In this document: positions 7,501 to 36,117 of the stretch, piece after piece
Numbering within the stretch: position 1 is the first letter of the stretch
How the letters are laid out: every line of letters begins with the position of its first letter
Assembly (NCBI RefSeq): GCF_041260155.1
Contig: NC_091945.1
Coordinates: forward strand, 34,106,296-34,170,295
Source of the DNA: Ptychodera flava
Taxonomy: Eukaryota > Hemichordata > Enteropneusta > Ptychoderidae
DNA length: 64,000 bases
Direction of reading: 5' to 3'
Program-made: the position numbers and the translations under genes
Notes under the pieces: model-generated
The model's database searches: none
Seen by the model: only the letters and a program-made list of their open reading frames with translations
What the model was told of the DNA's origin: nothing

Positions 7501-10500
7501 ATAAATTGAAGAATAATTTACATTCATTCAACACTATAATACATATTTAATGTAAAGGTGATCAATAAACTCATTTGTTTATAAGGTGTTCCTGGACAAC
7601 AAGTCGATATTCATCCTAGTTGCGGATGCGTCACGTGATCTGGACGACGAGTGTCCAATAGACGAGAGTGATTCTAGGGGTGAACGCCAATGCTGGAAAA
7701 AGAATATGAATTATAAAGGTGATAAATTGTTGTGTTTCCCGTTTATAATGGTTAGTTCATGGATTTATTTTCAAGTCAACCTAACAATTTAAGAGCTTCG
7801 TAGGTCATGATCAGTTCTGAGATAATAATCAGCAACGATGTAATGTGAACAATTGGACTGGGCCAGGGGAATACGGTAGTTGCGAAATGGACAATGGATC
7901 AAATCAGCGTGGCTTTGGAACTGAGTATTAAACAACACTTTTACGCAGTTTTCACGACTGGACGGTTGTCACGACACGATCAGTTGCTGCCATTAGCACG
8001 TGATCTTTGCATCCCGTCCGAAACGACAAGCAGAAATTCTCTATCCACGCATTGCTTGTGGCTGTCGGTCATTGGTAAAGTTAACCTAGAGTAATTACAA
8101 ATGAACAAGAAAAGTGATCTCTGGTAGAACCATATATCTTTCAAATATTCCACGTTCCGTTCTTAAGTGAAAGAATCATAACGAAAAACACTTATATTAC
8201 TTATTATAAATTACAGATTACCTGACATTTTGGTTGAATTCAATACACACATGCAGTAAGAGATCAACGGAGACTATCGTAATTGATGACCAAGAATATA
8301 CGACTCCTCTGATAATATTGGTTGCCACAAAGAAGGACAAATTAAACAAAGATCAACAGGTTAGTTTATCTTCAGATACAGTGCTGGGACAACAATCTCT
8401 GGCCAATTGCAATGCTCTGTAACGTCGTAATTTTTTATCGATATTTCACACTTTCGGTTTCCAAAATGACAGGGCTGCTCTCTTTAAAACTTGAATACAT
8501 CCATGAAAGATATGCAAAATTGTCATCATTGTTCCCTGTCACTTGTCTGTCAGCGGACAGCTGTATACAACCATGTAGTACCTATCGGATAACGGTACTA
8601 GCATGAAATGCAGACCACGTCACACACTTGTGTGCCCTGTGACACCACTATACACATCTTTATAGTGCTGTACACAGACCTGTGTGAGAGCACTGTGAAA
8701 TTCAATGTCATCTTCGCTGACATTGACGAGGAGAACGGTTTGTGACAGGGCTGTCATGGTCTGTCACAGGGCTCAACCTTTTTTCTATGTCGTAATTTCA
8801 GGCCACCAAGACAGCATGAAGGCTTCTTACTGACAATGTAAACATTTGACTCTGCCGTTAATTATTATTCTTTGACCAACTTTCGGCGTCGCCGGCTAAC
8901 AGAGAGAAATGTTGGTTACAGGATTTGTATAAATTGTGTAACTGTTACGGCAACCTTTTACACTCACAGGATGATTTTGTCCAAGAGATGAGGTTGTATC
9001 TGGCTGAGGAATGCGAAGAGGCGTTCGACGCTCATATATTCCAGGAAACGTTCATTGTTGACAACAGCAAAAGTGGAACAGATGAAGAGGATCCTGAAAT
9101 CAAGCGGTTGAGAGAGTGTTTGAAACTGATCGCCGATGCACCAATATTCACAACAGATGTTCCCGTGAAATGGTTACGGTTAGAACTTGTCCTGAAGGCG
9201 CTGAAAGATCTCAACAAACACGTCACCAGCATTTCCTTCGTCAACCACTATGCAACGAAGCTTGGAATCACTGAAAAAGAAACGTCAGAAATCTTGAAAT
9301 ATTTCCATGCAATCGGCATCGTCTATTTCTTTCAAGATTTGCTCGTTTTGGAAGCGCAATGGCTGACTGGCATTCTAAGTAGAGTGATACTAATGAAACT
9401 TGGCGATTTTCCGATTAAACATCCAAAGAAGAAGATGGAGCGTTTCCTTATAAACCTTAGAAGATACGGCATCTTGCACGATGAACTGTTGGATTTTATT
9501 TTGGATGAACGAAAACGAATCAAAAACAAAAAATCCGACGTGATCGAACGCGATCTTACCGGCAAAAACAAAGCAGTTGAAAAAAGTCTTGCGTATGATG
9601 CTCGCCAGTCTGTTCAAGATATCACTTCTGTGTCAAACGACGAAGCGATGTGTGCAGACAGCGGTGATTCGAGAACCACTAAGGGACGACAAAGAGTTGT
9701 TGAACTTCTGAAGCACTTTGATCTCGTATATCCTTTGAACCATGCTGCCTTGTCGAAATCTTACATCGTACCTTCCTTACTTCAACTTGACAGATTAGAA
9801 GTGCTTCCTCTTGGAGCAGAGAAGAGTTACCACACCCTGCCTTTATATTACCATTTCTCTGGTGGTTTTCTTCCAGAAGGGTTTTACTATCGACTTGTCG
9901 TTCGCTGTTTGGAAAATTGGCGCGGAGAGATCGACGAAACCACTCTCAGGAAAAACCTGAAATATCACCATGCTCGCATTCCCGTCAGTAGACGACACAG
10001 AATGACACTGACAAAGATTGGATCAGACATTGTCATGGTGATGTGGTATTCCACAACGGAGCGAACATTTCAACCTCTTCATCCAAAACCAGATCCGGCG
10101 AAGTGCATAGATGCTAGAATATTTGTGGAAAGTGCCATGAATGACATCATCAAGACATGGATGCCGTCATTAAGGTACTACAGTTGTAACACTACGCGAG
10201 AGCCGCTAAAATGTATTGTATAATAAAAAAAGTATGCACAGTGATAAACAACACATCATGAGGCTATCCGGATCCATTATTAATCTGACATTACCCATTT
10301 TAATACTCAAATTTCAGTTTAAATTTGTCTGTTTCATTGAAATACGCTACCCTGCAGAGTACCAATATATGCATTCCAGACTAATGCATGGACATATAGT
10401 AGTGTCGGAGGGCCGGTCAATGAAAAAGACTTCACAATTGTTGAAACATTTTATGCAACCAATGTTAATTTTTGAGAAAATCACACGACGGTTGGTTGAT

Positions 10501-13500
10501 AAAAATATGTATAAATTCTAGGTGACTTGAATGCACAAAATCTGAGAAAAGAATTGTCAAATTTTCGTACGAATGTCAGCATCCCAACTACAGGTACCGA
10601 GATCTAACAGTCAATGTCGTCCTAGGTCACACCACACAAGTGTTGGAGGCACCTTCGTAAGTGCGTTCATGTAAATATGAGTTAAACTCAGTAGCCCGTT
10701 TTTTTAGTCCCCTTGGACACCGTCCGGGGGGACTTATAGGTTTGGTCGTGTCCGTGCGTGCGTATGTCCGTGCGTGCGTGCGTGCGAGCGTTCGTCCATC
10801 CGTTCACACAGATATCTCAAAGATGCAAGGAGCGATTTCATTCAAACTTGGTACAAGGATTACTTCATATGTCATACAGATGCACGTCAATTTGTTTTGT
10901 GATACAATCCAATATGGCCGCCAGGCGGCCATTTTGCTATGATTTTTTTCATGTACAGAGCCATAACTCAGACATGTTTCAACAAATTTCATTCAAAGTT
11001 GGTACAAGGACATCGACCAATGTCATAGATATGCACGTCAATTTGTTATGTGATACGATCCAATATGGCCACCAGGCGGCCATGTTATTACGATTTTTTC
11101 ATGTACAGAGCCATAACTCAGAACTGTTTCAACCGATTTTATTCAAACTTGGTACAAGGACATTGACCAATGTCATAGATATGCATGTCAATTTGTTTTG
11201 TGATACGATCCAATATGGCCGCCAGACGGCCATTTTATTACGATTATTTCATGTACAGAGCCATAACTCAGACATGTTTCAACCGATTTTATTCAAAGTT
11301 TGTACAAGGACATTGACCAATGTCATAGATATGCACATCGATTTAATTTGTGATACGATCCAATATGGCTGCTGTGTGGCCATTTTGTTACGATTTTTTC
11401 ATGTACAAAGCCATACCTCAGGCATGTCTCAACCGATTTTATTCAAAGTTGGTACAAGGACATTGACCTATGTCATACATATGCACGTCGATTTGTTTTG
11501 TGATACGATCCAATATGGCCGCTAGGCAGCCATTTTATTACGATTTTTTCATGTACACAGCCATAACTCAGACATGTTTCAGCCGATTTTATTCAAAGTT
11601 GGTACATGGACATTGACCAATGTCATAGATATGCATGTCAATTTGTTTTGTGATATGATCCAATAGGGCTGCCTTGCGGCCATTTTGTTACGATGTTTTC
11701 ATGTACAGAGCCATAATACTCAGACATATCTCAACGGATTTTATTCAAAGTTGGTACAAGAACATTAACCTAGGTCATACATATGTACGTCAATTTGTTT
11801 CATGATTTGATCCAATATGGCTGCATGGAAGCCATTTAGTTACGATTTTTTCATGTCCTTAACCAAAACTTGGGCACGTCTCAACTGATTTTATTCACCG
11901 ATTTTATTCAAACTTAGTACAAGGACATTGACCTATGTCATACATATGCACATTGATTTGTTTTTTGATACAATCCAATATGGCCGCCTGTGACCATTTT
12001 CTCCCAATTTTTTCATGTCGGGAACCACAACTCAGACATGTATGAAGCAAATTTATTCAAAGTTGGTACAAGGACATTGACTTATATATACCGGTACATA
12101 TGTATGTTGATTGGTTTCTCGAGATTGATCAATATGGCCACATGGTAGCAATTTGTTATGGTTTTTCATGTCGAGAGCCATAACTCTGGCAAGTCTCAAC
12201 TGATCTTATTCAAAGTTGGTACATGGACAATGACTTATGTCATGATACATATATGTGTTGATTTTCTAAACAGTAAGATCAAATATCGCTGCATGGTGGT
12301 GATTTTGTTACAATTTTCTAATGTACAGAGCCACAAGTCGGACATATTTCCACCAGTATCATTCAAAGTTGGTACAAGAACATTGACCTATTTCATACAT
12401 ATGCTCGTCAATTTGTTTCACGTCATGTAGCAGTAACATGTCAATTATTGAAGTTTCTAAAGTAGGCTGATATGTCGAGAAATACTGCATCAAATTTCAT
12501 GAAACTTTGTACATTAATTTGTTATAGCATATGTAATGAACTTTCCTAATTAGAGTGATATAGCCACAAATTAATACAAAGTCAAATTTGATGAAACTTG
12601 ATACAGATGTTGATCTCATAGTCTTGTAAATACTGCATCAAACTTTATGAAATATGAGACCGGTGATAATCTGTTAAGTGTAAGGATTGTATGCAAAATG
12701 TTTTGCAACATCCTATTGATTAATTCCAAGTTGACTCATTTTACAAACTTCAGGATGGTGGCCTACACTGGTTTTGTGTTTTCATCACCATGAAACTCAT
12801 TCTTGGCCATTGACTCAAGCGCCATCTGTATTAAAGTATTTTTATCACAGACCTAATTAATGAAGAGGACTCTATCCTCTCTGAGGACTTGTAATCAAAG
12901 TACCCATTAACAAGTGGGGACTGTGTCATCAACGATGACTTGTTAAAATTCCATTCTGAGTCATAGACGTGTGTATATACGCCTAAGAAGAACACTTCTT
13001 AGGCGTATATACGCAGGTGTATGGGGCGTGTATGCGCAGAGCGGAATTTTAGAAAACCGGCGACTGTGAGTAAAATCACCATATATAATCATAAATGTTG
13101 ACGTCACAACATCTATATGTATCGATAAACCTAACATGTAATAAAATTTATTTTATCAGATATGATGCCAAAGTTCGATGCAGCTGTAAAGGTCACAAGA
13201 ATAAACATGAAGATGCCGACTGTGAGAAATGGATCGGTGATAATGATTTCGTCTTCCACGATATCAAAGTAGATCCACCGTACCAAGTCACCAAGGAGTG
13301 TCAATCGGTTCCTGAAATGAATCTGAGGAAAGGTATTGAACAAATCAGAAAGTACGTCGGACCCAACAGAGTTCAGTGTACAGAGATGCCTTGTATGATG
13401 GATTTACAACCAGTAAAGACTTGGTTTGGTAAGTGCATCGTGGGAATTGGCGTAAACTCGCCCTTAGTTCTTGTTAATGTAACATTTACAAGCAGATATA

Positions 13501-15396
13501 CGGATGAAATAAACTGATGAAGCTAGGACAAGTGGAAGTGAAATGAGTTGGCTCAGTACGTCTGAGATATCAGAGGTCATTGACACCCACAAAATAAATA
13601 CAGCGAGACACAAAAATACCACATATGGCAGAGCAGAAGCTCTGATTTTTCTCAGGTTGTAATGTCTACCAATTTTTCATATTCTCAGACACGTTAGCGA
13701 CGCCCACTGTTTTACTGGTGAGAATCTCAGGATGGAGTAACTAGCCAATTAGCTGAATTTCCACAATTTTGTGTCCATGTTTCTGTAATGTGCTTTTTCT
13801 TTTTTTGATTACTGACCAAACTCATGCTATAATGACAGCAAAATAGGAACTACAGCTTTTCGCCCATAAGCTAATGATTCGTGACCGGCCTGATCACTTC
13901 AATTACGGTTATTGACATCATCGACTTTTTGTTCGGTGTTTTAAAGCTAAACTATACCATACCTCGTCTCTTGATGAGAAAAATATAACTGTAACAATTT
14001 CTTTACAGTAATTGTCATTTTATGTTCTATATTCAGGTGTTTCCAACTCTGTCAGACTGACATTGAAAGACTTTACGGAGAGGATGCCAAAGTTAGGTGT
14101 AAGTCTCGGACATTCTCACTCATAGACCTGCATGATTGGATTTTCAGCTTCCTATTGTGTGTGTATTTCCATTGCTGATAATCTTAAACTGTGAATTGTG
14201 ACAGATTGGCATGACAAATAATCATTACATTATTTAATTCTATTTAAAGTGCGGCGCCCTGATCTTTTTTTATCTGATTGGTATTTCCATTGCTAATAAT
14301 CTTAAACTGTGAATTGTGACAGATTGGCATGACAAATAATCATTACATTATTTAATTCTATTTAAAGTGCGGCGCCCTGATCTTTTTTATCTGATTGGTT
14401 TTACTCGTTTTATTTTTCCCTGTAGGTGGTTGCCATGTCATGTGTAGTCATCGTCTTCTTCTGGTTGTTTGTTCTGGCAATAGAGTCAGTCTTGATTGAG
14501 TGCGAATCGATTCATCCTCAACGGGCATTGCTATGTTGGTCCAGTGCATCGCGATATTTCTCATTCTCATCTGTTCATTCTCATTGGCTACTTGGCTGTG
14601 TATATTTTACAGCAGGAATGAAGACGAATACCGAAATGTGAGGGCGCTGTTCCTCGTCGTGATATCCATGATGTCCATTTACATGTCTATCTTCGCCAAA
14701 GAGGTCAGTCAATGTTATAGAAACTTGTATCTGTGTCTTTAGAAGTTATTCAAACAGATGTATAGAAATTTGACATGTTTGAATCTGGGCAAATTTAAAC
14801 AAATATGAAGCTGCGAAGTTTCAACGATTTGATCTAGACAGACAGTTTATTTCACCCTTTCATCCCTTGAACATCGTATATTTAGTATAACTAGGCGCAA
14901 ACGTTTTTTGGGGTTTGAAATTTTGACTCACCTCACTATGCGAATTTTATTTTTTGAAATGTATGAAATGAAAAGCAACCCATGCGGGACTTGAACCCAT
15001 CTCCCGAATACATTTCGGATGATCTACCAACATGCTCTGCATGTCATTTTATGACGTTTGTCATGAATGACATGCATTGCATATCACATTCGATTTTGCA
15101 ATCGTTTTCTCCTCCTCTTACTTTTTTCTTTAATTTCGATCACCTTGAGACTTGTTTCTGTCACAGCTGCATGTTTGTTCACTGTACAAATGCCTAGCCG
15201 CTACTGCGAGTCAAATGAAACCCATTCTTAGAAGACGATTAATCCCGACTTAACACTGTAATTTCGGTAAAAACAACAATGATGTTACACTTTTCACCGT
15301 TTTTGTTTCCTTGTTTTCTTACAGATCTCAAAGATGACAGAGGACTGTCCGCATGCAGAGATAGCTGGTGTGCCCAGCAATCAAACCGTGACCTAG
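4592..15396 (+). CDS. DED-Roc-COR protein with C-terminal membrane helices (ROCO copy A)
   Basis: Host gene read as candidate exons 4592-4655, 5457-5667, 5700-5834 (unsure), 6394-6633, 6749-7152, 7586-7718, 8217-8359, 8970-10174, 13160-13428, 14037-14098, 14426-14703 and 15325-15396, about 1,070 residues. Borders are GT/AG and phases fit from 6394 onward. Exons 1-2 resemble a death-effector domain (start METTESRFDNYL, then LVALCGG and a closing RPDL like the DED RxDL motif). The Roc GTPase shows P-loop GQFGVGKTS, an acidic insert, DFAGQ (G3) and VATKKD (G4). Exon 8970-10174 is COR (WLRLELVLKALKDLNKH, FLPEGFYYRL). A six-Cys exon and three hydrophobic helices follow, then a short tail ending PSNQTVT. 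Inferred role: membrane-bound signalling adaptor or GTPase. Odd points: the membrane exon is one base shorter than in copy B, which shifts its frame, and exon 5700-5834 does not join its neighbours in phase, with only 32 bases separating it from the exon before. Confidence 0.8.
10706..12957 (-). mobile_element. Hairpin/microsatellite/core element, class 1 (HINE-like), in an intron of ROCO copy A
   Basis: One end is a hairpin (AGTCCCC at 10706-10712 pairing with GGGGGACT at 10727-10734), preceded by a T run and followed by a (TGCG)n tract. The far end carries GTGGGGACT near 12,926, the inverted match of the hairpin arm, then a short tail ending near TTAAAATTCC. A terminal hairpin whose arm is also complementary to the other end, plus a microsatellite beside it, is the layout described for non-autonomous Helentrons (HINEs/DINEs). 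On that reading the hairpin is the 3' end and the element lies on the minus strand. The family assignment is inference. Confidence 0.55.
10812..12430. repeat. About eleven tandem copies of a ~150-bp unit
   Basis: Units begin near 10817, 10963, 11111, 11260, 11410, 11560, 11710, 11863, 12023, 12176 and 12329. Each holds 'CATAACTCAGACATGTTTCA', 'TTCAAAGTTGGTACAAGGAC', a GTCATAnATATGCA block and CCAATATGGCCGCC. Later copies are more diverged. Several periods are close to 150 bases, a multiple of three, so a 255-residue frame stays open across copies. The frame follows the repeat and there is no sign of selection on it, so it is not called as a gene. Confidence 0.85.
12940..13056. repeat. Hairpin beside the Cys-exon acceptor of ROCO copy A
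   Basis: A perfect 17-bp stem (TATATACGCCTAAGAAG with its complement, loop AACA, 12974-13011) lies within a longer imperfect inverted repeat reaching GGAATTTT on both sides. It is about 100 bases upstream of the exon starting at 13160. One arm is also found near 60,154 (TACACACGTCTATG followed by GGGGCG), so it is a dispersed small element rather than a private structure of this gene. Confidence 0.7.
14163..14398. repeat. Recent 118-bp tandem duplication in an intron
   Basis: Two almost identical units, 14163-14280 and 14281-14398, run from GTATTTCCATTGC to ATCTGATTG. They differ at only one or two positions. The duplication ends just before the acceptor of the membrane exon at 14426, so it lengthens the intron next to the splice branch region without touching the exon. 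Confidence 0.9.
14971..15050 (-). repeat. tRNA-like sequence, probably a SINE head or tRNA relic
   Basis: On the minus strand a B-box-like GGGTTCAAGTCCCGC is preceded, at about the right spacing, by an A-box-like GTTGGTAGATC. A short stem (CCGAA..TTCGG) sits where an anticodon arm would be. The loop is shorter than in a normal tRNA and the acceptor stem does not close well, so a SINE head or tRNA pseudogene fits better than a working tRNA. It lies in the last intron of ROCO copy A. Confidence 0.45.
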
Positions 15397-17246: not shown

Positions 17247-17777
17247 TGTGCAACTTTCTAGTTTGCAAACCAATGTATTTCATACACGATATCTAGACAT
17301 CACGTCATTGTAGCTACAACATTTAAATTTTACTATCTGTACATGACAAACATTTTTAACTTTCATTAATCGCCAACGTACATTGGATACAACGTTTACA
17401 TCGGTCGTTATGTATCGCACGACCTTTGAGGGCAGTTCTGAGTACCCTTCCTTTGTATAGGCAGCTCCGCGGCTGTTCATAGAATGACGGTACATGTACA
17501 TGTCACGGACTGTATTGATGGAGTTATGTTGGGCCATAATAAGGACGTGCACATCTGGTAATGGCATCCATATCAGGTCAAGATATTTTCATGAAAATTA
17601 ACGTAGGGACTCGTTGACAGTATTAAGACTATACTATGACAACATAGTATCCTCACCTACAGAGGTTTTACTTGTTTGGAGAAACACTTAAAAAGCGCCG
17701 TTATCGTCGTCTGCGCATGTGCAGGATTTCGTGTTTACAAACATTACGTTCAATCCCACAAATCATTGCAATCCACG

Positions 17778-20080
17778 ATGGCGAGCGAGGATCCCATGAG
17801 CGCTAGCTTTGATATGAGCGGAGTGGACGCTGCTCTTGCCGATGTTTATGAAAAATAACTCACAAGAACCAAATCATGTAATTGTAGAGGAATGTGCTCA
17901 AGGAAACGTGGCCGTGGTGCATGCCCGTGCAAGGCCATAGACGAGTATTGCAATAATGGATGCACCTGTGGCAGACGACGTCCTTGTGTGAATATAGAAC
18001 CGGTAAGTACTGTAACGCTACCATACTACAGCTTGGTCGATCATTATTATTTATCGGTATTTATGGCCCGAAATATTTGCATCTAATACTAGCATGTGGA
18101 CAGTCCTGTCCTTTGAGTACTACTATCTAAGCCTAGTATGTGCGTTCATTTTTCCAATATATGACTGCATTCAAAAAGTTCGGACGAACGAAGCATGGCC
18201 TCGCCACAGCTTATGCCGTTATGTGCACACCCTATTTATAACCAAGTGTAGAAATGCTGTTTGTCCCAGTTGGGATAACAATTTCCAAGCGTACTTTTTC
18301 CACGGAATCGGCCATGTGTAAACCAAAATGCTATATGATCGACCATCCAGCTTTCCGGGCACTCTTTTTCGTAGATAGACCCTGACCTCAAATATCGTTT
18401 GATACTTATCTTACTTCCCGGATTTCAATCTCTAGACTAGTCTATGAATTCCTTTTGATACGCTTCATAATGGGCGAGAGCACTTGTAATGAACTTCTGT
18501 GACTTCGTCAGTCGCTGATTTGGAAAAAAGGTTGCCGTATAGGTTTGGAACCAACATTGAATCGGTATTCATTGCATAGTTGCTGCTATGATTGTAATTC
18601 ATAGACGATGATTTCAGTGAAAAGTCGACTTGAATTATTAAATCTGACAAAGTGAGATACTATCTCAGTATCTCCATACTTCATACTGGTACACAAGTTG
18701 CAAAAGGAGCAGCAACTAACATGTAATCCGAGAAAAACATTTCACACAACTATGAACTTCAGCCTACTACTGAAAAAGTGGCTTGTCAGAAAACTCAAAG
18801 TGGCTGGTAGATTTGGCTAGCTTCTGGCTCTTGTCCTCACCATCATTGCATCATAAATTGTGATGTGTTTTCTCTACAGATGAGTGAAATTTTCAGGGTG
18901 TACATCCTGGTGGAGGCAGTAAGCAGTAATTATTTGTCAACAACTGCCATACAGTTTCTTATATCATGTCACTAAAAAGTATGTTGTTGTGTAGCTATAG
19001 TGTTACCTTGCCAGCATTACCATTATTGATATTAGTTATTGCTTTTCCAATATCTTTATTTATATTTTTGAAATCTTAATCATGTGTACCTTTTCTGGTG
19101 ATTTATTTATTTATTTGTTGGGTGTTTTTTTTTGGGGGGGGGGGGCTGTGTTTTGTAGGAGTCGTCATCATCTGAGGAAGATGAGAATACTGTACAACCT
19201 GAACAGTCAAACATTAGGAAAAGACGACGTGTTGCTTACCAGCCTGAACAGCTATCACAGGTGCTAGATTGCATGGATGAACAGGACAGGCACAGTGCTC
19301 ATGAAAGAAATGTACAGGTTTGTAGAAAACTACCTTTGTTGTCAGTTTTACACATTTGTTTTTCATTTCATTTGATTGACATGTGAACAACAGAAGTGTT
19401 AAAGTCAAGTATAAAAATTTGAACAGGCAGTGCTAAGACTGTATGGGTAAAATAATATTCAAAATGATGTTAGACATTTGCTATGATTTTTCAAAATCAA
19501 ATAAGTAGGATTTTAAGCCTGTTAATCTTTGTTTTCTTTCATTGCTTTCAGCAATATATACAGAATTTAACAAGAGAAAGACTGGAAGAAGTGACCATGG
19601 AATTGATCAGAAGGCAACCGGATGCATGGGCAGACTTTGTCTTGGATAGAACCGATCAAGGCTTCAATCAGTTTCATCAGCAGCCATCCCTGATCCAAAA
19701 CCTGATGACATAGTATCTCCTCCATGGTGTAGGTGTGGAGAATGTCGACCAATGCCTTCACAGGTTGAAAACAAATGTTGTGCAAAAAGGACTGGCCAAG
19801 AATGCATAGCAAGGACATGGTTATTTCAACAACTTGTTATGGACCCTAATGTTTTAGAAATTGCCATGAGAACAGTTGCAGACACTTATGCGCAAGATCA
19901 ACCAAGGAACATGCATGCTACAGACACTTTGCATATCGCCAGTTTATATATTGGCAACATGGTCGGTTGGGCAGAGGAAACCGTCGTGTTATTCCATCAT
20001 GTTGTGTTCTAGTTATTAGAAGACGCTATTCAAGTCCTAATAACGTGTATGTTGGCTACATAGGAGAAATTCAGGACTAG
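17778..20080 (+). pseudogene. CXC-like plus P2X7-type ballast domain protein (transposon gene)
   Basis: Three exons: 17778-18002, 19159-19317 and 19552-20080, with clean GT/AG borders and phase 0 joins. Exon 1 begins MASEDPMSASFDMSGVDAAL and then has a Cys-rich stretch (CNCRGMC, ACPCK, YCNNGCTCG, PCVN) like a CXC/TCR DNA-binding motif. Exon 2 is acidic with a basic RKRRR patch. Exon 3 has an RLEEVTMELIRRQPDAW helix and then the P2X7 C-terminal 'ballast' signature: [64 protein letters not shown], ending YIGEIQD. The P2X7 ballast binds zinc and guanine nucleotides, and stand-alone versions are known from invertebrates. No channel domain is present. Breaks seen: a TAA at 17856-17858 before the Cys region, a frame change near 19,640-19,690, and another near 19,895-19,915. 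Confidence 0.75.
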
Positions 20081-21100
20081 CTTGTGAACTGTGAACTGCT
20101 TTATTTATCCTCGATGCTGTCAAAGTAGATATTGACAACATAAACCACAATATTTCTGTTCAAACAATTTTTTTATTAACATTTGAATATGCATGTGATG
20201 TGTCTGGTTCACTTTCTTCAGGTATGTATCAGTCATTGCAAACTGGTAATATACAATAAAATAAACAACACCTTGAGCTGTCCTATAGCATGGTCATTCT
20301 TACAAAACTGTATGCATGGACATTCATGATGTCTGTTTTTTCTGGGGTATGTACCACTCCTGAAAAGTCAACTTTTATGAAATTTCAATAATTCACATAA
20401 ACCCCTTCAAAGCCCAGGAAAAATAAATTTACACTTCCGGATGATTAACTTCAAAAACAAATGTTAACTTTTGCATGAAATTCATAGGGATCCAAGCCAG
20501 CTAAAAACTGCAAAATAATTCATTGAAAATGGCAGTTTTACCACACAATCTCGTTTGGAAAACTAAAGCAGTGAATAAGAGAACTAATTTTTCAGTTCTT
20601 CTTGGCTTTATGCCACATGTGTATTTATGAAATACTGAAGTGTTAGGTGTTGAGTAGAAAAACCTTTTACTCCTATTCAGGCCATCAACTATCCTCTCTA
20701 CAGTGCAAGGTTGGCTGAATACTGAGGCCAGTGTGTGTCACTGATTTTGAAGCTAAAAATTCAATGATGTCATTTGACCTAGCTTGGGTATGATATCTCT
20801 GCTCCAACATAGTGACAGACTCAAGTATACAATAAGCAGTAAATCAATAAAGTTTTTATCAATGAAAGAAATGACCAAACAGTTTATATAAATTGGTTCA
20901 TGAACCTCTCAAAATATTAATCTGAGTTCAGTAATTTTAGAACAGCAGTTTTCTGTTACTGGATATGACAGATACACGTATCAATAATGCAATATTTATG
21001 TCAATGATAAAATCAATGGAGGCAATAGAAGATCACACTATGAACACTTTCAAAGGTTTCTAATGTTCTATTTCCTTGCTGGATAAAGTTTACAGTGCAT
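20081..21100. other. Gap between the two convergent transposon genes
   Basis: No coding signal on either strand. It should hold both 3' ends; AATAAA-type words on the plus strand near 20,258 suit the ballast gene. Nothing else was recognised. Confidence 0.6.
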
Positions 21101-24100
21101 TCATTGATTAGAACTACCAGTAAGTTCATGAGACTGTGATGTGGCAAATCTACTCTGATACTGTGCTGTAACTTGACTTAAACTAGGCCTTGTCACCAAA
21201 TGTCTAGTGCTATGGATTCGCCTGGGATCATTCTCATCCAAGGACACATGCCAGGACATATGGCCATAGTCATTTTGCCGAGACTGGAAGATCTGCCTTT
21301 GCAGCTCACCAATGTATTCATACTTCTTGGGCTCTAGTTTGGCAGTAGGATAAAACCTCTTGGACTGCTTAGAGTATTTGACTTCAAACCTGAAAAACAA
21401 TCATGAAGATAGTTTTAAAGCAACTCTCAAGCAGTATAGATTATCATAAACATGACTGTGTGATTCTAATGTATCCTGATATGTCAAACATAACAAGACT
21501 GTGATTATGCAGCCTATTGTAAAAAGTCTAGACGGTACAATCTGAAGTTCAAATCCATAACCAGCATCAGGATAGTTTTGTCGGCTATTCACACTTTCAA
21601 CAATATCATTTACCAATGTGTGTGGAGGCAATGTGTCAGTACTAAAGGGTCTACAATAGTAACATTAGGGTATTTCTTTTTTCGATTTTCATTGTGAATA
21701 TAAAATGAAGTTTCTTGTTCTGCCTACAGCAATCCTACAAAGCCGAGTATGTACTGGTAGGTATCACACACCTTGGTTTCCCTTCTTTGTCCAGAGCTTG
21801 CTTCCGATTAGTATGTTTATTAAAATCTATGGCAGCCAACTGAATTCTTGCTTTATAGGCAACATATCTGAAGTTTAAGAAAGTATGAAATGGTCATGTT
21901 TTAAATTTGGATTCTCCTCATCCCTAAAGAGTCTACGATGAAAATATGGATAAAACTGTACATGCACATCGTTTACATTATACAGTATGACTTCAATAAT
22001 TTGCAGACGTAATACTGCCCCCAACTTTTACTTTCCCAAGACATAAACAATCAGTCTAACAGTAATTTCTACGTACAATCAGTACACTGTAAAATTTGTC
22101 TATTAAAATGGGACATTGAAGGCAAGGAGGACATTTTTTTGGGTTTGCAGAGGTGTTCGGAGTCTGGTTTATTGAAGTTCTTTGAACACAGTGTGTATGT
22201 AGAAGATGTACTGAGTGCAACCAGATTTGGTTTAGACAAGCTGTACGGTGCAACATATGATACTAAAGAACACACAAATATACTTACGTGTATGCATGTC
22301 TCTTTGGGGCATACATCAAAAGGTGACTGTGGAAAGACTCTACAAAGCCACTGTGTCTGGTGAAAAATGAAACAAATAGCATCAAATGACACTCTGCTTC
22401 CAGCTGGATCATTATAAACACATACTCATATGTCACAAATATTATCTCTCTGTATTAAAGCAAGACCTGGGTCTGTCAGGCAGCCTAAACAGAAAAATTC
22501 ACACAGACCTGTACAGAAACCTGTACAGTTTCCATTACATGTAACGGTACAGACATGAGCACACAGCTGTACCAGCTCTGAAAATCTACAGGGACTGTAC
22601 CAGCTATGAGAAATACTCGTCTGATATAGCATTGTCATAGGTCAGCAAAATGGTGTTACCACTAACAGTTGCATTTCATATCCATGAACCATAGATGCGC
22701 ACGTTTCAAGGCCAGTAAAAATAGAGCTTGTAGATGCTGTGCTAGAATGCTGACAAAAGTATGCACATCTTTCCTATGATGGTAAAGATTTCCTGTGTAG
22801 CATACATGTATTTGTTCATTAACATTAACCACTGATAGTTTTCTCATAATGAACATATCTGAACACCCATCGAAACCTAAACACAAAAATTTCTAAAGAT
22901 TTGAACAAGGCATTGCAAAAGTTGCAGATTTCAGTGGATTCTGTTATTGTACTTGAACTTTCTGTGTCAAGGATTGTTCCAAATGAGTGTACAGACATGG
23001 CTATGGTAGCAAATAACAACATACCTGAAATTTACATAGTAGCTGAATGTTCTCAGGAATCTTTTATCTTCAACAATCCCTTTGAGTGCCACGTGAGCAG
23101 GTGACCCTTTCTGTAGCCATGGTCTTTGCTGATTCTCCTCTGTCAATGGTGAATGTGCACATTTGCCATAAGTTCCATCATATTTAGCAGCCATTCATGT
23201 TCATTTACAACATGATGCAGAATGCCAAACCATATTGCCTATTGGGTAAACAACAATAAAAAAGCATTTGGCACCAATATATTTATGATGCTGCTTATTT
23301 GTTAGCACTATTTACCCATGCAGAACATTCCACATGCTTAAAATTTCAACATGGATATAAGCCTCAATAACTAGTACTGCTGTACTCCACACATTTCAGA
23401 TTAGACAGAACATGAAAAACTTACAGTATGTTCATGGTGCAGTCATATTGGATTGTCATGTACAATATCACTGACAGTATTTGTACATTGTTACACACTG
23501 TTCTGATGCTACCATCAAAGAGTACTGTCTGTAAATTGGTGGACAGACTAACATGTGAAACACACACTTCCCTTCTTCTCAGGCTGTTTTGTATTTTAAC
23601 ATTAAAAATACTCACTTTCATTTTCCTTTCACTTCCCTTGCTCTCTTTGGCAGCATACCAGAAGTGATTTCTGATAGTTGATGCCCATGGCAAAAGGTCT
23701 CGACATTTCTTATTTTGGGAAGCCTGTAGACCATGATAAAATTAAGTGAAATTTAGATATGTACATATTGCCTCTGCATTTTTTTGCAATTCAGCACGAT
23801 ACACTAACAAATACAATGTAGCTAAAACCTTCCTTTCCCATGGTGTAGCACTGGATAAAACTGGGCCAGCCCAATGCTAGCCTACTGACAGTCTGATATT
23901 TATCATATTCTTTATCCAACATCCTGTTCTTTGCTCATGTAGTCATACACTAATGATGTGATATCCATATCTCAATCTGTGTTGTTACACTTAAAGCTCA
24001 TAAGCTAAGAAGTGTCAAATCAACAATTACTAAGGTACATGTATCAAATGATCTTATAAAATCCACAAATTTCAACACAACACTTCTTGGTCAGCAGTCT

Positions 24101-24974
24101 GAATAAACTGCATGATTTATGATATCTAACATGTTGCTCCACTATGACAATGCCAGCTGGCAAAATGTTTTCCTTTGTTACTCTGAAATTTAAAGAATTC
24201 AGCATACTTTGCCGTCTTCAATACCAATACCAATACCAACTTGAATAGCAGATGAGATTCAAGAAAATTTTGCCTGCAAAGAACTAACATGATGTTAAGC
24301 TATGAAAGTGTGCATTGATAAACTAAAGATAACATACCTTTACTACCTTTTTGTGAATGTTCTTTCCTCCATGCCACAAGTCCCAGGAATGTTTGACTCC
24401 TTTAAACTTATCACACTTTTCTGGATGTAATAGAGAGTAAAACAAAAAAAAATTATATATATACATATATATAAGTATTTATAACAATAATCTATATTTA
24501 TCATTAAAGGAGCATTAATAAAGTCAGGTGTAGAATACTATCTGAATACTATCTGATGACCACTGTGAACAAAATATACCATTTTGAAATAGATGTAGTC
24601 AGACAATAATGAGAATGGTAAATGCAGGAAAAGCTGTCCAGAGGAGTGTTAAAAGCAACAAATACTAATCTTGTATATAAATGATATACTGTTGCTGATT
24701 CACTTTCTAACAGTGACCCTAACACCAAGGGTTTGTGAGTTTCATTTTACATGAATTGTACTGTAACAGTTTTCTGTTCAAAGGCTAGGTCAGCTGGTGG
24801 AAGCAATATCAAACCTCTAGGACTATGCTTGCTTTGCTCTCTCCCTACCTGAGTCACAGACATCACTAACCCTAAGTTGACTTAGCTTATGGATAGGAAA
24901 TTACTCAAAAACTAAGTACTTGAACTCTGTGAATCATGAATGACTTCTGTAACAGTAATCACCTAATCATGCAT

Positions 24975-25165
24975 TAAAGGTATACTGTCACCTGTTCCAA
25001 TTTTGCCACCGTTACCATGGAAAGAGAAAATCTAACCAATCACAGATTTTAAGCGGGTTGCCGCTTTTTAAAAACAGCGCCCCAACATGGGCATTTTGAA
25101 TACCAAGGAATGTCCCTTTGACCATATATGGGCATATTTAGATTACAGGTGACTGTATACCTTTA
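24975..25165. mobile_element. TA-flanked MITE inside the transposase gene
   Basis: TA at 24975-24976 and 25164-25165 brackets inverted ends AAGGTATACTGTCACCTG and CAGGTGACTGTATACCTT (one mismatch). The interior is short and non-coding. A TA duplication with an 18-bp inverted end suggests a Tc1/mariner-type non-autonomous element. It lies in the intron between transposase exons 4 and 5 and therefore inserted after, or moved along with, the large transposon. Confidence 0.8.
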
Positions 25166-28100
25166 GCACATATAGGTTTTTGCCACCCTAATCTGCAAGT
25201 CATCAAAAGTGGTTTGCTCAAGGTCATGAAGGTCTGATAGTATTCTACGGGCAATCCCATAATTTGCAGAACAGCATGAATAGCTTATAATATAAAATAG
25301 GAGTAGCTAAGATTACAAATTTATCCTTTTTAAATTTTGGTCAATAATGTATACCATCACTTTTACTACAGAAGAGACATGTACATACTCAAACGTACAT
25401 AAATGCATATATAAATAGGTACAATGAAAGACATAAAATATATGTCCATGTACTGCAGCACAAACACTTACTCATGACTGCAGCTATCTGTGAATGTGCA
25501 TCTGTCACCATCTCATCAATGACTATGTTCTTCTGTAATTGATCCATGGACCTTTCAAACCCAAGCCGCTCCATGTTTGGACTTTTACCATTCACTTCTC
25601 TGACATCAACCACTTCTGTGTGAACTATCACCTTTTTTTCTGGATCACCAACATTGTATGATAGATACTGTGATGAATGACCCGGTGAATCATTTCTTCC
25701 ATCACCACTTAGTAAAGCTTTTTCACCTTGGTAAGCACTCAGTAACTCAGCCTGAAGAGTCTTCCAAAATGATCAATCGTTGGTGCTAGGTATAGATTTT
25801 GCATACGATAGAATGTAGTTTGTGATATGTTAGCGATGTTAGCAAACTGGAACATCAATTTGATCTTTGCAAAACTGTTCCCAGAAAGTAGAATACAGGC
25901 TGCTATTTGAAGATTTCAAGCAAACATATCATGGACTCTAGGTTGTGATTGCCAACTTCCAACAGGGTGCCCAGCATGACATGTCCAGGTAACAATAACT
26001 GCAGTACCAATGAATGCTGTCTTATATGCAAGGGCTTCTTTACAGTCTTTTCTATTACATAAGTTTCCATTGGATTTTTTAAGCAAGTCCACGATGCAAG
26101 GAACAAAAGCTATACACTTCTGCTGTTCAATCACATTCATATCATCATCAATGTCATCAACCATCAGTTCATCATTGCTGATGTCATCTGTACCAGTGTC
26201 CTGAACATCAAACACAGCTTCCTCAATGGACACATGTGGATTGCCTCTGAAATGGGATGGAAAGTCCATTGAACATTGTAGTAAAACATTTTAATTTGTT
26301 GAGTAAACATTCATGTAGCAGCACAACCTAACAGGAACATCAAAGACTGAATACTGCTCACCTTCCTGCACTGCAGTTTAACTCGGAGTGAACATCACTT
26401 TCTCCATCGCTGGAGTCACTTTCAATAGCTGACAGAGTGTCTTCACTATCTCTTTCTTCACTATCTCACAAAAGCAAAAAATTATCATTCGATATTTTCA
26501 AAAGTCCAAAACAAGAAAAATCACTACATTTTGTATTTCAAAAAAGGAGAACAGTAAACATACATGGTCTACTATTACCAGTATGTCTGCCAGACAAGTA
26601 TGATCACAAAATTGTAATAATTGAATGTGCATATCAACAACATGGATAGTGTGTAACTGTACATATAAATTAAACTGAATTTCCAGTTATGATTACAGAT
26701 AATGGAGCATCTGAACACCGATTAAGGATGGAAACTTTTAGTCTGACATCTATACATTATAGATGTACTGTTGTCTTTTAATTCTAGATGGGATACAAGT
26801 GGTAAGGGAAAACGAAAAATAAATTGTTCAAATATTGTTATAAATCTGCAAAGTATATTTTTACTTGAATAACATGAAATCTTAAAAAAACACTCGCCCA
26901 TAAAAATGGCAGGAATACTACCATTCAGTCTGATTTCCTTCTCTATACCTCAAAAAATTTAGTATCATTAGAAGTACATACCAAAGAGGTTGTTTACAAA
27001 TGCCTGGTTTCCTTGAAGTTGATGTTGCAATGGGGCCTTGGCATACATCTGCAAATATAAATAACATACAAGTGAAAATATAAATGGGTTCAAGAAGTAC
27101 TAGAAAGCATTCACAAACACCTCTGGAGGAAGGGGGTATGGTAGGGGCAAGAAAATCAGGACAGTTTTGAAATACATCTAACAAACTCAGAACTTCTCAA
27201 GTTTCCTCCTTTCAATTGGCAATACAACAAAACAGGTAAGAAAGTTTAATATTGGTATGGCCAGATTTCAGATTTCTTAAGTTTATGGACGTTTAACAAC
27301 ACTTTCTGTACACAGCAAATACCAGTCACATTATCTTGTTGAAAAGCAAAACTGTGATCCCATATCAAGCCCCCAGGTGTTTGTAAATGGTGCCTAAAAT
27401 TTTAGGAAAAGTGCCAACAACAAAATACATGCGTTTGTCAGCATCTGATTTTTCAAAATTGGAATGGACATGCAGGCATAATCAAAGTTACAACATTTTC
27501 ATCTACAGTAAGTTTCTCTACATTTTAATTACTCTATTTTGAAATTGATAGAAAAATAGAAAGTGGAACAATTACATAAACACTACTATTTTGACTAAAA
27601 AGATTATAGTTAGTGGAAATTCCCATAGAGAATACTACACATGCATTTCTAAAACTAGCAGAAAAAACTAGCTGAATCATCGAAACAATCAGTCAAACAA
27701 TAATGAAGTGTGTAGTTAGGGTCGAAATAGTGGTGGTACATGCCCTTTGGGGAAGTCATCATTATGTAATAAAAATGAATATATAAAACATGTTTTAATA
27801 AAAAATATAAAAACATGAAACGACCAACAAATAATAAGGTATTATCAAATGTTATGTACATGTAACAACATGATTTTGTGGGGGCTAGAAGACTAGTGAA
27901 TGTTATAAGGTAATTGCCATATCATGCATATATTTTACTTCATCTTGTCATACATGTAGACTTAATCAAAGCAAGTGTCCATTCAACACTTAGGACATTT
28001 GTCAGTTTCTCTACATTTCAAGTATATGTAAACAAATAAATGCAAAAAGTAAAGATTTCAACATCTTATGTAAAATACTAAAATTTGTAGAATAGCATTC

Positions 28101-28652
28101 AGAAAATCAACAAATAGTCAAACCGTGATGTACTATAGTTACCTTTGAGAGTACCTTCAATGGGAGAGATGCTAAGAAAAATATCTTGAGCTGTTATAAA
28201 TATCATTAATGGCATGACCATGCACTCTTTACAAGAGACCCTTTCCATGCTTCTCCAGTGTCTAAATTCTTTGCAGAACAAATTACAGTATCTGCTCTAA
28301 TAATGTGAAACTGTTTCACTTCTACTTGTTATGTTATACTTGCATGGAGAGTGCCCTATAGCTGGCAACATGTAATTATCATAAAGACACTACAGTGTAT
28401 ATGCCTTTGCTGCAACTGTGCGTGGGTAGGCCTATACACTAATCATGGAGACTAACAATATTACGAGGTTGACAGTGTAAAATGAAGATTTTTTACGCAG
28501 GAGAGATTTCAGCCTGCGTTTCAGCACTAAAACTTGGAAACTAGAGACAATTTGGCCTTAGATTCAGAAACCAGAGACATTTCGGTCCGGTTTTTTCTAG
28601 CTTTTCTAGCTCCATGTTTCTCGCTTCATGTTTGATCGCTGTCTGGGCATGG

Positions 28653-28694
28653 CCATGGAGGTAGAAGGAGAGATCTCTTCTTCTACCTCCATGG
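28653..28694. repeat. 15-bp perfect stem hairpin
   Basis: CCATGGAGGTAGAAG pairs with CTTCTACCTCCATGG across a short loop. It lies in the first intron of the transposase gene, about 40 bases from the foldback element at 28,730. It may be part of the same insertion complex; no function is evident. Confidence 0.7.
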
Positions 28695-28729
28695 TCTGGG
28701 TAAGTTTGTACATGCACTTGCAGGCTTTG

Positions 28730-28885
28730 TAGCTGTGGGTCCATAGCTGTGGTGTTTTCGGACGGGGTTTCTGACTTTTACATGCTGGTTTTGACTTTTA
28801 CGTGGGGTTAATGACGTTAAAGTCAAAACCAGCACGTAAAAGTCGGAAATCCCGTCCAAAACAGCACACTATGGACCCACAGCTA
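28730..28885. mobile_element. TAGCTGTGGG foldback element, short form
   Basis: The 156-bp element is a near palindrome: TAGCTGTGGGTCC..GTGTTTTCGGACGGG at the left returns as the complement at the right, with CTTTTAC/GTAAAAG blocks inside and a few mismatches. The same ends bound the 971-bp foldback at 32,369-33,339, whose interior is entirely different. It lies in the first intron of the transposase gene. No target duplication is clear. Confidence 0.75.
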
Positions 28886-29649
28886 TTACCAGACACCATC
28901 CTCCGTATTCGGTGTGCACATGCTGCGTTCCCGAAAATTGCCGGACAGGCTTTACAACTAACATGTAAACTGATACAATGTACAAGCTCACAAGAACGAT
29001 CCACTCACCTTTTGGATTGGATAGTAGCAGCTGTAAGTTCTCCACTTGTGTTTCCACGTCTTTGACTGTCTCCGTCGGAGTCGCGATTTATACCACACTC
29101 ACGAACAGAGGGAAACATTCGTGACAGTTTTCCCGGTGGGAAGCAAGGACATGTTCGGCAAATTTTGCATTTGATGCAGTCATGTAGCGGACTGCCTTCG
29201 CCTCCTTCCATGTCTCGTGTGCACTGTACAAATAAATTTTAGTTTTGTCCCTTCTTTTTACCCAATTCGGAGCCTTTTCACGACCTCCAACACAGACTAT
29301 GGTCGCCGCCATCTTGCTTGTGAGCCTTGGTAATACACTGCCTTATGGGATACACTGTACATTTATTCTCGTAACCAGAGACTCGGTCTGGCACCTGCGC
29401 AGACGACGATAACGGCGCTTTAAGTCATTTATTGAAAAGTCGTAAGCATTTGGAAAGTCATCGTATAGCGTTATGTTTGAACAGTATCCGATGCTAATGG
29501 TTGAAAACTGTGTCCGATGATCTTGTTGATTGATGTCAAAATAATGTGTTCTAATGGGTCTGTCTTTGTCTTTTCATCTGATCAGTTTGTTTGTTTGTTT
29601 GTTTGTTTGTTCAATCTTTTCGATTACCTATATTAATGAGAACATATTC

Positions 29650-29953
29650 TTCTCACGTCCCCAGTGCGCTGGGAGTGTGAGAACACAGTGTGAGAATAAT
29701 AGAATCCCACACCCCAACGGGTTGGGATGGAATGTCTCACACGAGTTCGGGAATTCTGTCTCACACGAGCCGAAGGCGAGTGTGAGACAGAATTCCCCAA
29801 CGAGTGTGAGACATTCCATCCCAACCCGTTGGGGTGTGGGATTATTTTTCTCACGTCCCTCCAATATCTTTAGAAAATGCATTTTATTGTGGTAGGTTTA
29901 TACTATCAAAACCTGTGTTCTCACACTCCCAGCGCACTGGGGACGTGAGAACA
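29650..29953. mobile_element. Nested palindromes (CCCACACCCCAACGGGTTGG family)
   Basis: The outer pair is TTCTCACGTCCCCAGTGCGC (29650 on) with its complement at about 29,918-29,953. The inner pair has arms of about 75 bases, running from CCCACACCCCAACGGGTTGG through TGTGAGACAGAATT and back, at about 29,694-29,850. A tail with CTCCAATATCTTTAGAAAATGC lies between inner and outer right arms. The inner element plus this tail recurs in reverse orientation at 50,424-50,640, so it is a separate mobile unit inserted into the outer one. Open frames on both strands are by-products of the palindrome. Confidence 0.8.
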
Positions 29954-30566
29954 ATTTGTTCTCACACTCTGTATTGTTGCGCAACCGAACACCTCGTATG
30001 TGAAACGTTATGTTGATTGGTCAATTCTGCTCAGCGCCTAGTTCTCTGTACGAATTATTTGACGAATAGAACATTGCGTAATGTACAACTGGCACTATAG
30101 GGGACAGACGACTGAACTGCAGAGTGAACAGGTTGTTCTAGATTTGAGTACGGTCAGCGTGGCGTCGGCTACAAATACACGGAGGATGACCGCTTTCATG
30201 TTGTAACGGGAGAATTCAGGCCATTACAAACCTATCGGCTATTTACGCTCGTCGACATATTTTCTGGAGAAGAACTGACTTGACAGCGATACAGTTAGCG
30301 AAAGACTTCGATGAGCGAGCCATTTGCACACGAGGCTGTAGCAGACGACAGCTTTCACGCAATGTCATCAACAGATGGCCACCAGAGCTGTTTCGCAACA
30401 TTTTCCTCAGATGACCTGGAGAATTTTGTGGCTGACCAACAAAACAAAATTGCCATATCGGTAATATACATGTTAACGTGTTTGATATGCTCATCAATGA
30501 ACGGAACTTCATTTTTCTTTGCGGAATGACACAAATGAAACAAGTGCAATCGTGTGCTGGTTTTTT

Positions 30567-32109: not shown

Positions 32110-33427
32110 TAGCCCTGCGTACGATGCTGTGTGTTCCGCTACAGCTATTAATAGCCCCGCTCACCACAGCCCTGCAAAGACCCGTACGTAGAGTTGGTGA
32201 CTTCAAATCCATTTTGGACTTGACGTAAAAAGCCAAATTACTGCCGAAATTCAGCGTTCTTGGGCCCAAGTCGTATCCCTGCCTACCGCAGCTACTCGAT
32301 CGCTTCCAAAAATGACAGTCTTTTATTCTTTTTTCGTAAATAACCGTCGATGTCGGCAACTCTCTCGCTAGCTGTGGGTCCATAGCTGTGGTGTTTTCAG
32401 ACGGGATTCCTGCCTTTTACGGGCCGGTTTTGACTTTTACGATTTTTAACCCCGCCACCACAGCTATGGGATATTCCATAGACTAGCGTCCAAATCCGCC
32501 GCAAGCACCCTTTGCGCAAGTTTGCTCGATGATATTTCGAAAAATTTTCCATCCAAATTACAAATTGCCAACACTCATCGACAGCTTGGTTATTAGGGAC
32601 TCACCAGACCAGAAATCCGCTCAAAATTCACTGAAATATCGCCTTTTTTCTAAGTTTGCGCGACATGACTACACGTAGACCGCCATTTTGCTAGCGTAAA
32701 ACTGTTGGTCGAGGATCCCTGCAGTACGTCACTACAGTGACGTAGGGCCGTGACCTCTCAACTTCTAAACACAAACTGAGAGATTCATCGTGTGATATCG
32801 ATGACCATCGTTCGTCCTATGGACATTCCCAGTCTCACAAAACTGAAACCAAACTTTTACTTGGGGGAAAAAGTTCAGTCCTAGGATCTATAATTATTCG
32901 TGGCGCGCCGCGCGGATGCTGGCCGTAAGTTAGTTTGTGTTCAGAAGTTGAGAGGTCACGGCCCTACGTCACTGTAGTGACGTACTGCAGGGATCCTCGA
33001 CCAACAGTTTTACGCTAGCAAAATGGCGGTCTACGTGTAGTCATGTCGTGCAAACTTAGAAAAAAGGCGATATTTCAGTGAATTTTGAGCGGATTTCTGG
33101 TCTGGTGAGTCCCTAATAACCAAGCTGTCGATGAGTGTTGGCAATTTGTAATTTGGATGGAAAATTTTTCGAAATATCGTCGAGCAAACTTGCGCAAAGG
33201 GTGCTTGCGGCGGATTTGGACGCTAGTCTATGGAATATCCCATAGCTGTGGTGGCGGGGTTAAAATCGTAAAAGTCAAAACCAGCCCGTAAAAGGCATGA
33301 ATCCCGTCTGAAAACACCACAGCTATGGACCCACAGCTACTCTCCTCGCTAGCCCTGCGTACGTACGCAGTGTACGCTGTGCATTCCCTGTGTGCGTTCC
33401 TAACACACAGCGTACACTGCGTACGTA
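32110..33427. mobile_element. 1.3-kb insertion with 9-base target duplication
   Basis: ATACGTTCT stands at 32101-32109 and again at 33428-33436, while copy 1 of the host repeat has it once (31044-31052). This is a clean filled/empty comparison. The inserted DNA starts TAGCCCTGCGTACG..GCTGTGTGTT and ends with a related inverted sequence (..CACACAGCGTAC..TGCGTACGTA). A strong hairpin lies at 33,361-33,426. Most of the interior is the 971-bp foldback at 32,369-33,339, itself nested. Confidence 0.8.
32369..33339. mobile_element. 971-bp foldback with ~408-bp inverted arms
   Basis: Left arm 32369-32777 and right arm 32932-33339 are near-perfect inverted copies (sample word GGGATATTCCATAGACTAGC with its complement), separated by about 154 bases rich in GCGCGCC-type words. 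Ends are TAGCTGTGGGTCC, as in the short element at 28,730. The flanks CTCTCTCGC and CTCTCCTCGC resemble a 9-10-base target duplication, as Mutator-like elements make, but with an indel. No coding sequence was recognised. Confidence 0.85.
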
Positions 33428-34000: not shown

Positions 34001-35728
34001 ATGATAAGTTTCAATACTGCACAGCTACATAGCGTCACTATCGTGTGATCGAGGTACAGCGTTGTTGAACGGGATACAGAAACTCTGCAGAGGGAGAAAC
34101 GATCGTTGACATGAACAGTCAATGTACTTCAGCACGTAGTCCGCAGATAGCGGATCGAGAAAATAAACGTGTCCCAGTAATAACGGAATATTTATGTACA
34201 TTAACTCGATATTAATCAAATTTCCAGCTCATCGCAAAAAAATGTATTGCAAAGATTAATTTGTCACTGACAAATACTGCACTGTATGGAAAAAACAGTC
34301 TGTAGAATAGTTCAACTTCAACTGGTAGGCATAGTATTACCCGAGACAAACACTTGTGTTGTCAATTTTGATTTCATTTCATAAACTTCATACTTCATCG
34401 AGTATCGTGTATTTCAGCCTTTGTGAAGCCATTTTATTGATATTTTCAATTTTTGTCTTGGCTTTGTTGTTGAACATGTTGAATCGTCTCCGTGGACATG
34501 TACGCAAAAGTGTGACGGGGTCGAAGTGACTTGGGTACCTGGGGCCGACCAAAACCGTGTGAATTACTGGGGTCAAAGCGGACAGCGGCCGGGATGACGT
34601 GTTCCCCAAGCGAGCTACCTTCAGAAGTCTGTTTCATCGCAACTTTTAAAACCCGTCATTTATTTACTGATGTTATTCTCAGCATCACAAACATATACGC
34701 CTCTGCTATGTATCACAGCAAATAGTTATATTTGAGCGCCCCGTAAATGGGATCCTCGTTTTTTTGCGAACCCGGAAGTGTGTCTTGCTCAATGCATTTC
34801 CTACCCATAGCGAGGGAAACTGCCCGCGTTCCCATGCTCCCATGCACCCTTTTTCAATGCCAGTGCAACGCCATCTGTGCAAAATTTGTGGTGGTATGGT
34901 CCCGTTTGATGGAAAACCTCTCTTATTCTAACAATGACGTAGTTGACTTTGGACTTCGATTTCGTAAATGTGATGTCCATGCAGTGAGTTTGGGTTGGCG
35001 CGCTTATAATGTAGCTCTGCATGGCAGGGCTGTGTGTTACCGGCGTTACACGGCCTCCCACCACAGGTGGGAGGCCGTGTAACGCCGGTAACACACAGCC
35101 CTGCCATGCAGAGCTAGCTTATAATGCAATCTTCGCCCGCCTGCGGTCCGATATCCCGCATTTATTAGCGATATTTATCTGTTTTGACTTGACCAAAGTT
35201 GGCAAAACTTGCTATGTACGTTAAAGATACTATGATACAAGATTATTGAAAGTCATTTGACATTTTTTTCAGCCAATTCCCAATATGCATATTAATGAAC
35301 CTTCCAAATTAGGGATATATACTGGCATTTACTTGATAAAATTTGGCGAAACATGCTGTGTACATTGATCATTATACCAGGTTATAACAGTATTGAAAGT
35401 CATTTTGCATTTTCATGTCAGCTAATTCATAATTTGCATAAATAGCTAACAAGCTTTCACGGTTTGGCATATAGAGCTTGAAGGACTTGACCAAAGGTAA
35501 TTACACATGCTATATTGTGATACAATGACAGTACTCAAAGAAATTAATTATTTTTATTTCAGCTAATTACATATTTGAATACTTAATGACCTTTAGAATT
35601 GATCTGTGGTGAAATTCATTGTGTTGATCATAACACTTTAAATGTAGCAAAGCATGTAGCAAAGGTTCAAACTTGCACATAAATGCAATATATAATGAAA
35701 CACGTGAGCATTTTCAGTTCATATCTGG
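34001..35728. repeat. 1.7-kb 3' module ending ACACGTGAGC..ATCTGG, copy 1
   Basis: Runs from ATGATAAGTTTCAATACTGC to CACGTGAGCATTTTCAGTTC..CTGG. It matches 48,807-50,421 almost base for base apart from a nested 107-bp element (35,012-35,118) and small indels. The last ~30 bases contain ACACGTGAGC, the inverted match of the hairpin arm at 30,567. This suggests it is the far end of the same type of element. Its second half carries AT-rich diverged 'core' repeats (ACTTGACCAAAGTTGGCAAAACTTGC and relatives). No coding sequence was recognised. Confidence 0.8.
35012..35118. mobile_element. 107-bp palindromic MITE with an empty site elsewhere in the window
   Basis: TTATAATG at 35004-35011 and 35119-35126 flanks a near-perfect palindrome beginning TAGCTCTGCATGGCAGGGCT and ending AGCCCTGCCATGCAGAGCTAGC. 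The other copy of the surrounding repeat has TTATAATG only once (49812-49819). This gives an exact insertion point and an 8-base target duplication, as in hAT-type transposons. The inner words GGCGTTACACGGCC and GTGTGTTAC are shared with the element at 38,261-38,710. Confidence 0.9.
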
Positions 35729-35730
35729 TT

Positions 35731-36117
35731 GTATAATAGCGTGTAGAACAAAGATGTTATCTGTAGTACAATGGTTCTTTCTGAAGCCAGCCTGACAATC
35801 TGAAATGATATTTACGTTATCAGACACTTAGTTAATCTGTCATTCAGGATCGCAGTAAATATTTTTCCTAATGCGTTGAGAAGAGAAATACCCCTGTAAT
35901 TGTTCACATCTTTTCTGTCACCCTTTTAAAAGAGCGGGATAACAATAGCGATAGTCCATTCTGACGGGAAAATTCCAGACTCAAAAATACAATTAAAAAG
36001 CTCAACAAGTAAAGGTAGAATAATGTCTGAGGCATACTTGTAGAACTCATTTGGAAGGCCATCTGGACCTGGGGCTTTACCTGATTTTAATTTTTTCAGA
36101 CATTTTAACACCTCATT
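35731..36117 (-). pseudogene. LINE reverse transcriptase fragment
   Basis: The minus strand reads LKKLKSGKAPGPDGLPNEFY, then FESGIFPSEWTIAIVIPLF; after an in-frame TAA it continues KGDRKDVNNYRGISLLNALG and KIFTAILNDRL, and after a frame change QAGFRK and TTDNIFVLHAII. These are the early RT motifs of non-LTR retrotransposons in their usual order. Neither the catalytic YADD box nor the endonuclease is present. The piece is bounded on one side by the ATCTGG tail of a repeat and on the other by the hairpin at 36,121. Confidence 0.85.

Follow-up and report, generated by a model that had tools for sequence, protein, structure and literature searches.

Kolobok DNA transposons of the Kol0 lineage, represented by Kolobok-1_XT, encode a transposase and a second protein, KolX, which has the fold of the ballast domain of the P2X7 receptor; they use TTAA as target and have RR..YY ends (Kojima and Bao 2022, PMC9587614, in the parts of the paper available). 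The same parts give seven as the number of zinc cysteines of the ballast fold, name RR..YY ends as a feature that distinguishes Kolobok from piggyBac, derive P2X7 from a P2X4-like gene that became fused to KolX and suggest that Nanor of zebrafish is a domesticated KolX. They also place a zinc finger between the C/DxxH motif and the last E in all Kolobok lineages except Kolobok1, and describe a CCHC finger after the first D for KolobokP, KolobokE, KolobokD, Kolobok5 and a few families.

Ballast domains have also been described outside transposons. Stand-alone ballast (ZCD) genes occur across Metazoa, the only group in which that study found the domain, and an “ancestral synteny” has been reported around them (Rump et al. 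2020, PMC7016195, available sections). That paper regards the stand-alone genes as host genes; its main text, as far as available, contains no word starting with “transpos”, and H547 of P2X7 was not found among its invertebrate sequences. In P2X7, this domain carries sites for GTP/GDP and for zinc (PMC9859053, abstract). Among the literature matches listed, PMC9587614 was the only paper linking the ballast domain with a transposon, and no paper contained both “kolobok” and “cxc domain”.

Positions 17688 to 29423 of the window (the whole stretch of 64,000 nucleotides that was analysed) very probably hold a Kol0-type copy of a Kolobok DNA transposon that has decayed. The host is probably an animal, given that PMC7016195 found the ballast domain in Metazoa only. 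The element is approximately 11.7 kb long and is bounded by 31-nt terminal inverted repeats at 17692-17722 (+ strand) and 29391-29421 (- strand), with an intervening spacing of 11,668 nt. The repeats match at 30 of 31 positions and share 26 consecutive identical bases. The longest exact inverted pairs at least 5 kb apart in eight dinucleotide-shuffled windows reached only 14 to 17 nt. The first-pass annotation had proposed TTAA with inverted ends of 24 bases; the ends and the TTAA stand, and the length is corrected to 31 nt with one mismatch.

The left TTAA (17688-17691) and the right TTAA (29420-29423, its first two bases shared with the 31-nt repeat) probably represent the target site duplication expected of Kolobok, as read from the sequence of one occupied site. 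The left end carries two extra A between TTAA and the shared end sequence in comparison with the right end. The element has RR..YY ends, with AA following the left TTAA and AG following the right TTAA on the complementary strand. A further occurrence of the end sequence was not found in the window, either as a 31-mer with up to five substitutions or as an 18-mer with up to three; an end pattern that included TTAA recovered only the left end because of the two-A difference. Likewise, tblastn of the window with both element proteins returned only the 17688-29423 element. The joined flanks, matched against the window as a model of the empty site, gave no match spanning the junction; besides themselves they matched only 31 bases (6009-6039), within a GTTT run of the right flank.

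KolobokP, KolobokE and KolobokD belong to the same superfamily as the present element but differ from it in having a CCHC finger and either long terminal repeats in direct orientation or nuclease partners of another kind (PMC9587614, available sections). Self-comparison of the element revealed only the 31-nt inverted ends and fold-back repeats; direct terminal repeats, including the long ones of KolobokP (~450 or 660 bp), were absent. The His-Me finger nuclease of KolobokP had no Pfam match among the element pieces scanned.

Two convergent multi-exon genes lie between the ends, one on the + strand (17778-20080) and the other on the - strand (29312-21101), in agreement with the two convergent spliced genes of the first-pass annotation. 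The ATG of the ballast gene is 55 nt from the left repeat and that of the transposase-like gene 78 nt from the right repeat. As each gene begins less than 80 nt from its end of the element, both appear to be integral to it, and the same argument suggests that the ballast protein functions in the element rather than being the product of a host gene that strayed into it. The possibility that a host ballast gene came to lie inside a Kolobok element by chance or capture, as cargo and not as a regular part of the family, draws on the stand-alone ballast genes reported across Metazoa (PMC7016195, available sections) and on the examination of a single copy. It is nevertheless very unlikely, given the closeness of the ballast gene to the left repeat, its orientation towards the transposase gene, the decay seen in both genes and the published account of Kol0, in which a ballast protein regularly accompanies the transposase (PMC9587614, available sections). 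A Kolobok-type element with the ballast gene as an integral part is thus the best reading and is supported by the layout and by the published make-up of Kol0.

The ballast (KolX-like) gene consists of three exons, whose borders were chosen by eye and whose two junctions are both in phase 0. Exon 1 (17778-18002) starts with the ATG at 17778, contains a cysteine-rich, CXC-like motif (17877-17987) and ends at a GTAAGT donor; exon 2 (19159-19317) has no Pfam match on its own; and exon 3 (19552-20080) encodes the P2X7 ballast domain. Two reading frames of exon 3 matched the Pfam family P2RX7_C at 47.6 and 47.0 bits (cut-off, 23.5), and the joined exons, with X at the breaks, matched it at 95.4 bits (E = 5.4e-27) over profile positions 40-191 of 192. 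P2X7 chains in the PDB (6u9v, 8tr5, 9e3m and 9e3q) match both pieces of the domain. The ballast domain claimed by the first-pass annotation is therefore confirmed by profile and by structure-linked alignment.

The zinc-site cysteines of P2X7 align with those of the KolX-like protein. Six are aligned in one PDB alignment and the PSCC pair in another, and together these cover what we take to be the seven zinc ligands. The second protein of the element thus has both the ballast fold and the seven conserved cysteines of Kol0, by the Pfam and PDB alignments. By offset in the ungapped alignment with 9e3m, R546, H547, A549, Y550, P570, C572 and R578 of P2X7 are kept and K583 is not; R554, named in PMC7016195 (available sections), was left out of the comparison, the residue at its offset in the aligned chain being Ala. 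In contrast to P2X7, the domain is located here in a transposon protein that has no channel part. The stand-alone ballast genes and Nanor likewise encode short proteins with the domain at the C terminus (PMC7016195, available sections).

The motif in exon 1 contains nine cysteines, spaced C-x-C-x3-C-x8-C-x-C-x6-C-x3-C-x-C-x5-C. This spacing pattern had a single match in the six frames of the window and none in 100 shuffles, a test that is descriptive because its pattern was modelled on the motif itself and was relaxed once an initial version had failed to find it. The motif matched no Pfam family and no PDB chain up to E = 10, and neither source gave a profile or sequence match to a CXC domain of the tesmin, EZH2 or MSL2 type. 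The CXC-like motif of the first-pass annotation holds as a cysteine spacing and not as a recognised domain. What it shares with the CXC regions found in EZH2, MSL2 and tesmin is the spacing of cysteines only.

The transposase-like gene, on the - strand, opens with an ATG at 29312 and closes with a stop at 21101; the stretch from 29009 to 26464 is tentative. It comprises a tentative 5' exon (29009-29312), an acidic exon B (26362-26464; tentative extent, phase matching exon C), exon C (25472-26246), exon D (24338-24420), exon E (23616-23723), exon F (23025-23238), exon G (22288-22356), exon H (21772-21867) and exon I with the stop (21101-21389). Its exons were delimited by eye at GT..AG borders, and codon phases agree at each of the seven junctions linking exons B through I, which provides an independent check on these borders. 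The motifs GDGRNDSPG and VTDAH (exon C), DLWH (exon D; the DxxH motif) and VESFHS (exon G, with the putative last acidic residue) are ordered as expected of a Kolobok transposase. The catalytic acidic residues were also assigned by eye, and the resulting DDD/E and C/DxxH signature is weaker than the other features of the element, being a matter of motifs to which profiles and structures add nothing.

Pfam, NCBIfam and the PDB gave only chance-level matches to the transposase-like gene, of which the strongest, to zf-met2 with the 5' exon, stayed below the cut-off of that family (E = 0.0064). As profiles and solved structures gave no recognition, the identity of the gene depends on motifs and layout. 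The - strand gene is inferred to encode a Kolobok transposase from its motifs, the ends, the target site and the partner gene, and the first-pass assignment as Kolobok type is to that extent upheld. Cysteine is absent between GDGRNDSPG and VTDAH, and there is therefore no sign of the CCHC finger of KolobokP, KolobokE and KolobokD. The lack of this finger fits Kol0 but is not specific to it, as other lineages are also without the finger. Exons E and F, between DxxH and the last acidic motif, hold Cys and His, candidate residues for a zinc finger.

With Kol0, the present copy has in common TTAA, RR..YY ends, DDD/E-like motifs with DxxH and a second protein with the ballast fold (PMC9587614, available sections). 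Compared with Kol0 as described there, the copy, at about 11.7 kb, is decayed and carries nested repeats. A further difference is that its ballast domain is preceded by a CXC-like cysteine motif, of which the available parts of PMC9587614 make no mention.

A piggyBac-type element would share the TTAA target, and a KolX-like protein has been attributed to a few piggyBac families (PMC9587614, available sections). In that account, however, the piggyBac KolX-like proteins are without most of the seven cysteines, whereas the cysteines here align with those of P2X7, and RR..YY ends such as those of the present element are given as a difference from piggyBac. In addition, no Pfam transposase model matched. 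An assignment to piggyBac is therefore highly improbable.

Both genes of the Kolobok copy are broken, a feature absent from the first-pass annotation. The ballast gene has an in-frame TAA at 17856-17858 in exon 1, ahead of the CXC-like motif, and frame changes in exon 3 at approximately 19650 and between approximately 19869 and 19918. The transposase-like gene has a TGA at 25918-25916 and a frame change at approximately 25766, both in exon C, and another at 23185-23194 in exon F; a further frame change, judged by eye, is probably present at approximately 29114 in the 5' exon. These stops and frame changes probably represent real decay of both genes, with assembly error as another possible source. 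The copy as read yields neither protein intact and therefore could be mobile only if a full copy elsewhere supplied both. That the locus is domesticated, with both genes serving the host, has a precedent in the suggested origin of Nanor (PMC9587614, available sections) but is scarcely credible for genes with stops and frame changes, unless these are assembly errors.

Other repeats are nested in or adjoin the Kolobok copy. A fold-back repeat at 28730-28885, which is nested in the copy without belonging to the core element, has relatives at 32369-33340. A 191-base repeat at 24975-25165, between exons C and D, has 21-base inverted ends (95% identity) and is likely to be a small nested transposon. 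Adjoining the copy, at 29637-29964, is a short element whose inverted ends span 52 bases (96% identity); a relative of it is found at 50422-50656.

Relatives were also sought in viral contigs and prokaryote genomes. Four scans of viral contigs, with two transposase pieces, one ballast piece and the end sequence, gave no confirmed relatives; the peptide patterns picked out 7 and 4 stretches for the transposase pieces and 2 for the ballast piece, none of which was confirmed by tblastn. Two scans of prokaryote genomes, with a ballast piece (206 stretches) and a transposase piece (75 stretches), similarly ended with no relative confirmed by tblastn. The absence of relatives says little because these collections are of viruses and prokaryotes. 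Rfam gave no matches at gathering scores.

The first-pass annotation had linked the element to the evolution of P2X7. The link is sound and is not a new inference, since PMC9587614 states it outright: Kolobok elements probably gave the ballast domain to P2X7, as already published in 2022 (available sections). The present copy is an independent example of this published source of the P2X7 tail, in which the receptor domain lies within transposon ends beside a transposase-like gene. It adds two testable details, namely, the CXC-like motif ahead of the ballast domain and the kept H547 at the nucleotide site, the latter being of interest only if the host is an invertebrate.

In an intact element, by analogy with the family, the DDD/E transposase would bind the inverted ends, excise the element and join it at TTAA, and the element would also encode KolX with its ballast domain. 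The most likely role of KolX would be to aid transposition by helping the transposition complex to assemble. Its CXC-like motif would contact DNA, either the terminal repeats or the target, and its ballast domain could act as a zinc-stabilised assembly or guanine-nucleotide module. Transposition complexes of the P element assemble in a GTP-dependent manner, and the superfamily of the P element shares the C/DxxH motif. A joint reading, unlikely as a whole, would make KolX a two-part transposition co-factor, with a CXC-type DNA-binding head and a zinc-held, guanine-nucleotide-binding ballast domain, and would explain the nucleotide site of P2X7 as a remnant of a GTP-dependent step in assembling the transposition complex; in addition, the “ancestral synteny” around metazoan ballast genes (PMC7016195, available sections) might partly reflect this element's own transposase gene.

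Several other features are located in the window. The regions 6258-14708 and 52752-57484 are related, being 71 to 90% alike in pieces; the former has Roc and COR-A matches above the cut-off and represents a ROCO-type gene, and the latter, with a COR-A match below the cut-off, represents a relative of that gene. A tandem array with a 150-base unit in approximately 10 copies (10833-12418) begins approximately 0.6 kb after the COR-A reading frame. A Helitron-type element at 41537-47855 contains pieces of an OTU protease, DUF6570, a Helitron replication domain and a PIF1 helicase, and the reading frame that follows these pieces is endonuclease-like by eye. Direct repeats at 34179-35736 and 48985-50429, approximately 14.7 to 14.8 kb apart, are 99 to 100% identical in most pieces and 94% identical in the last, and this high identity points either to duplication in the recent past or to one young element present twice.
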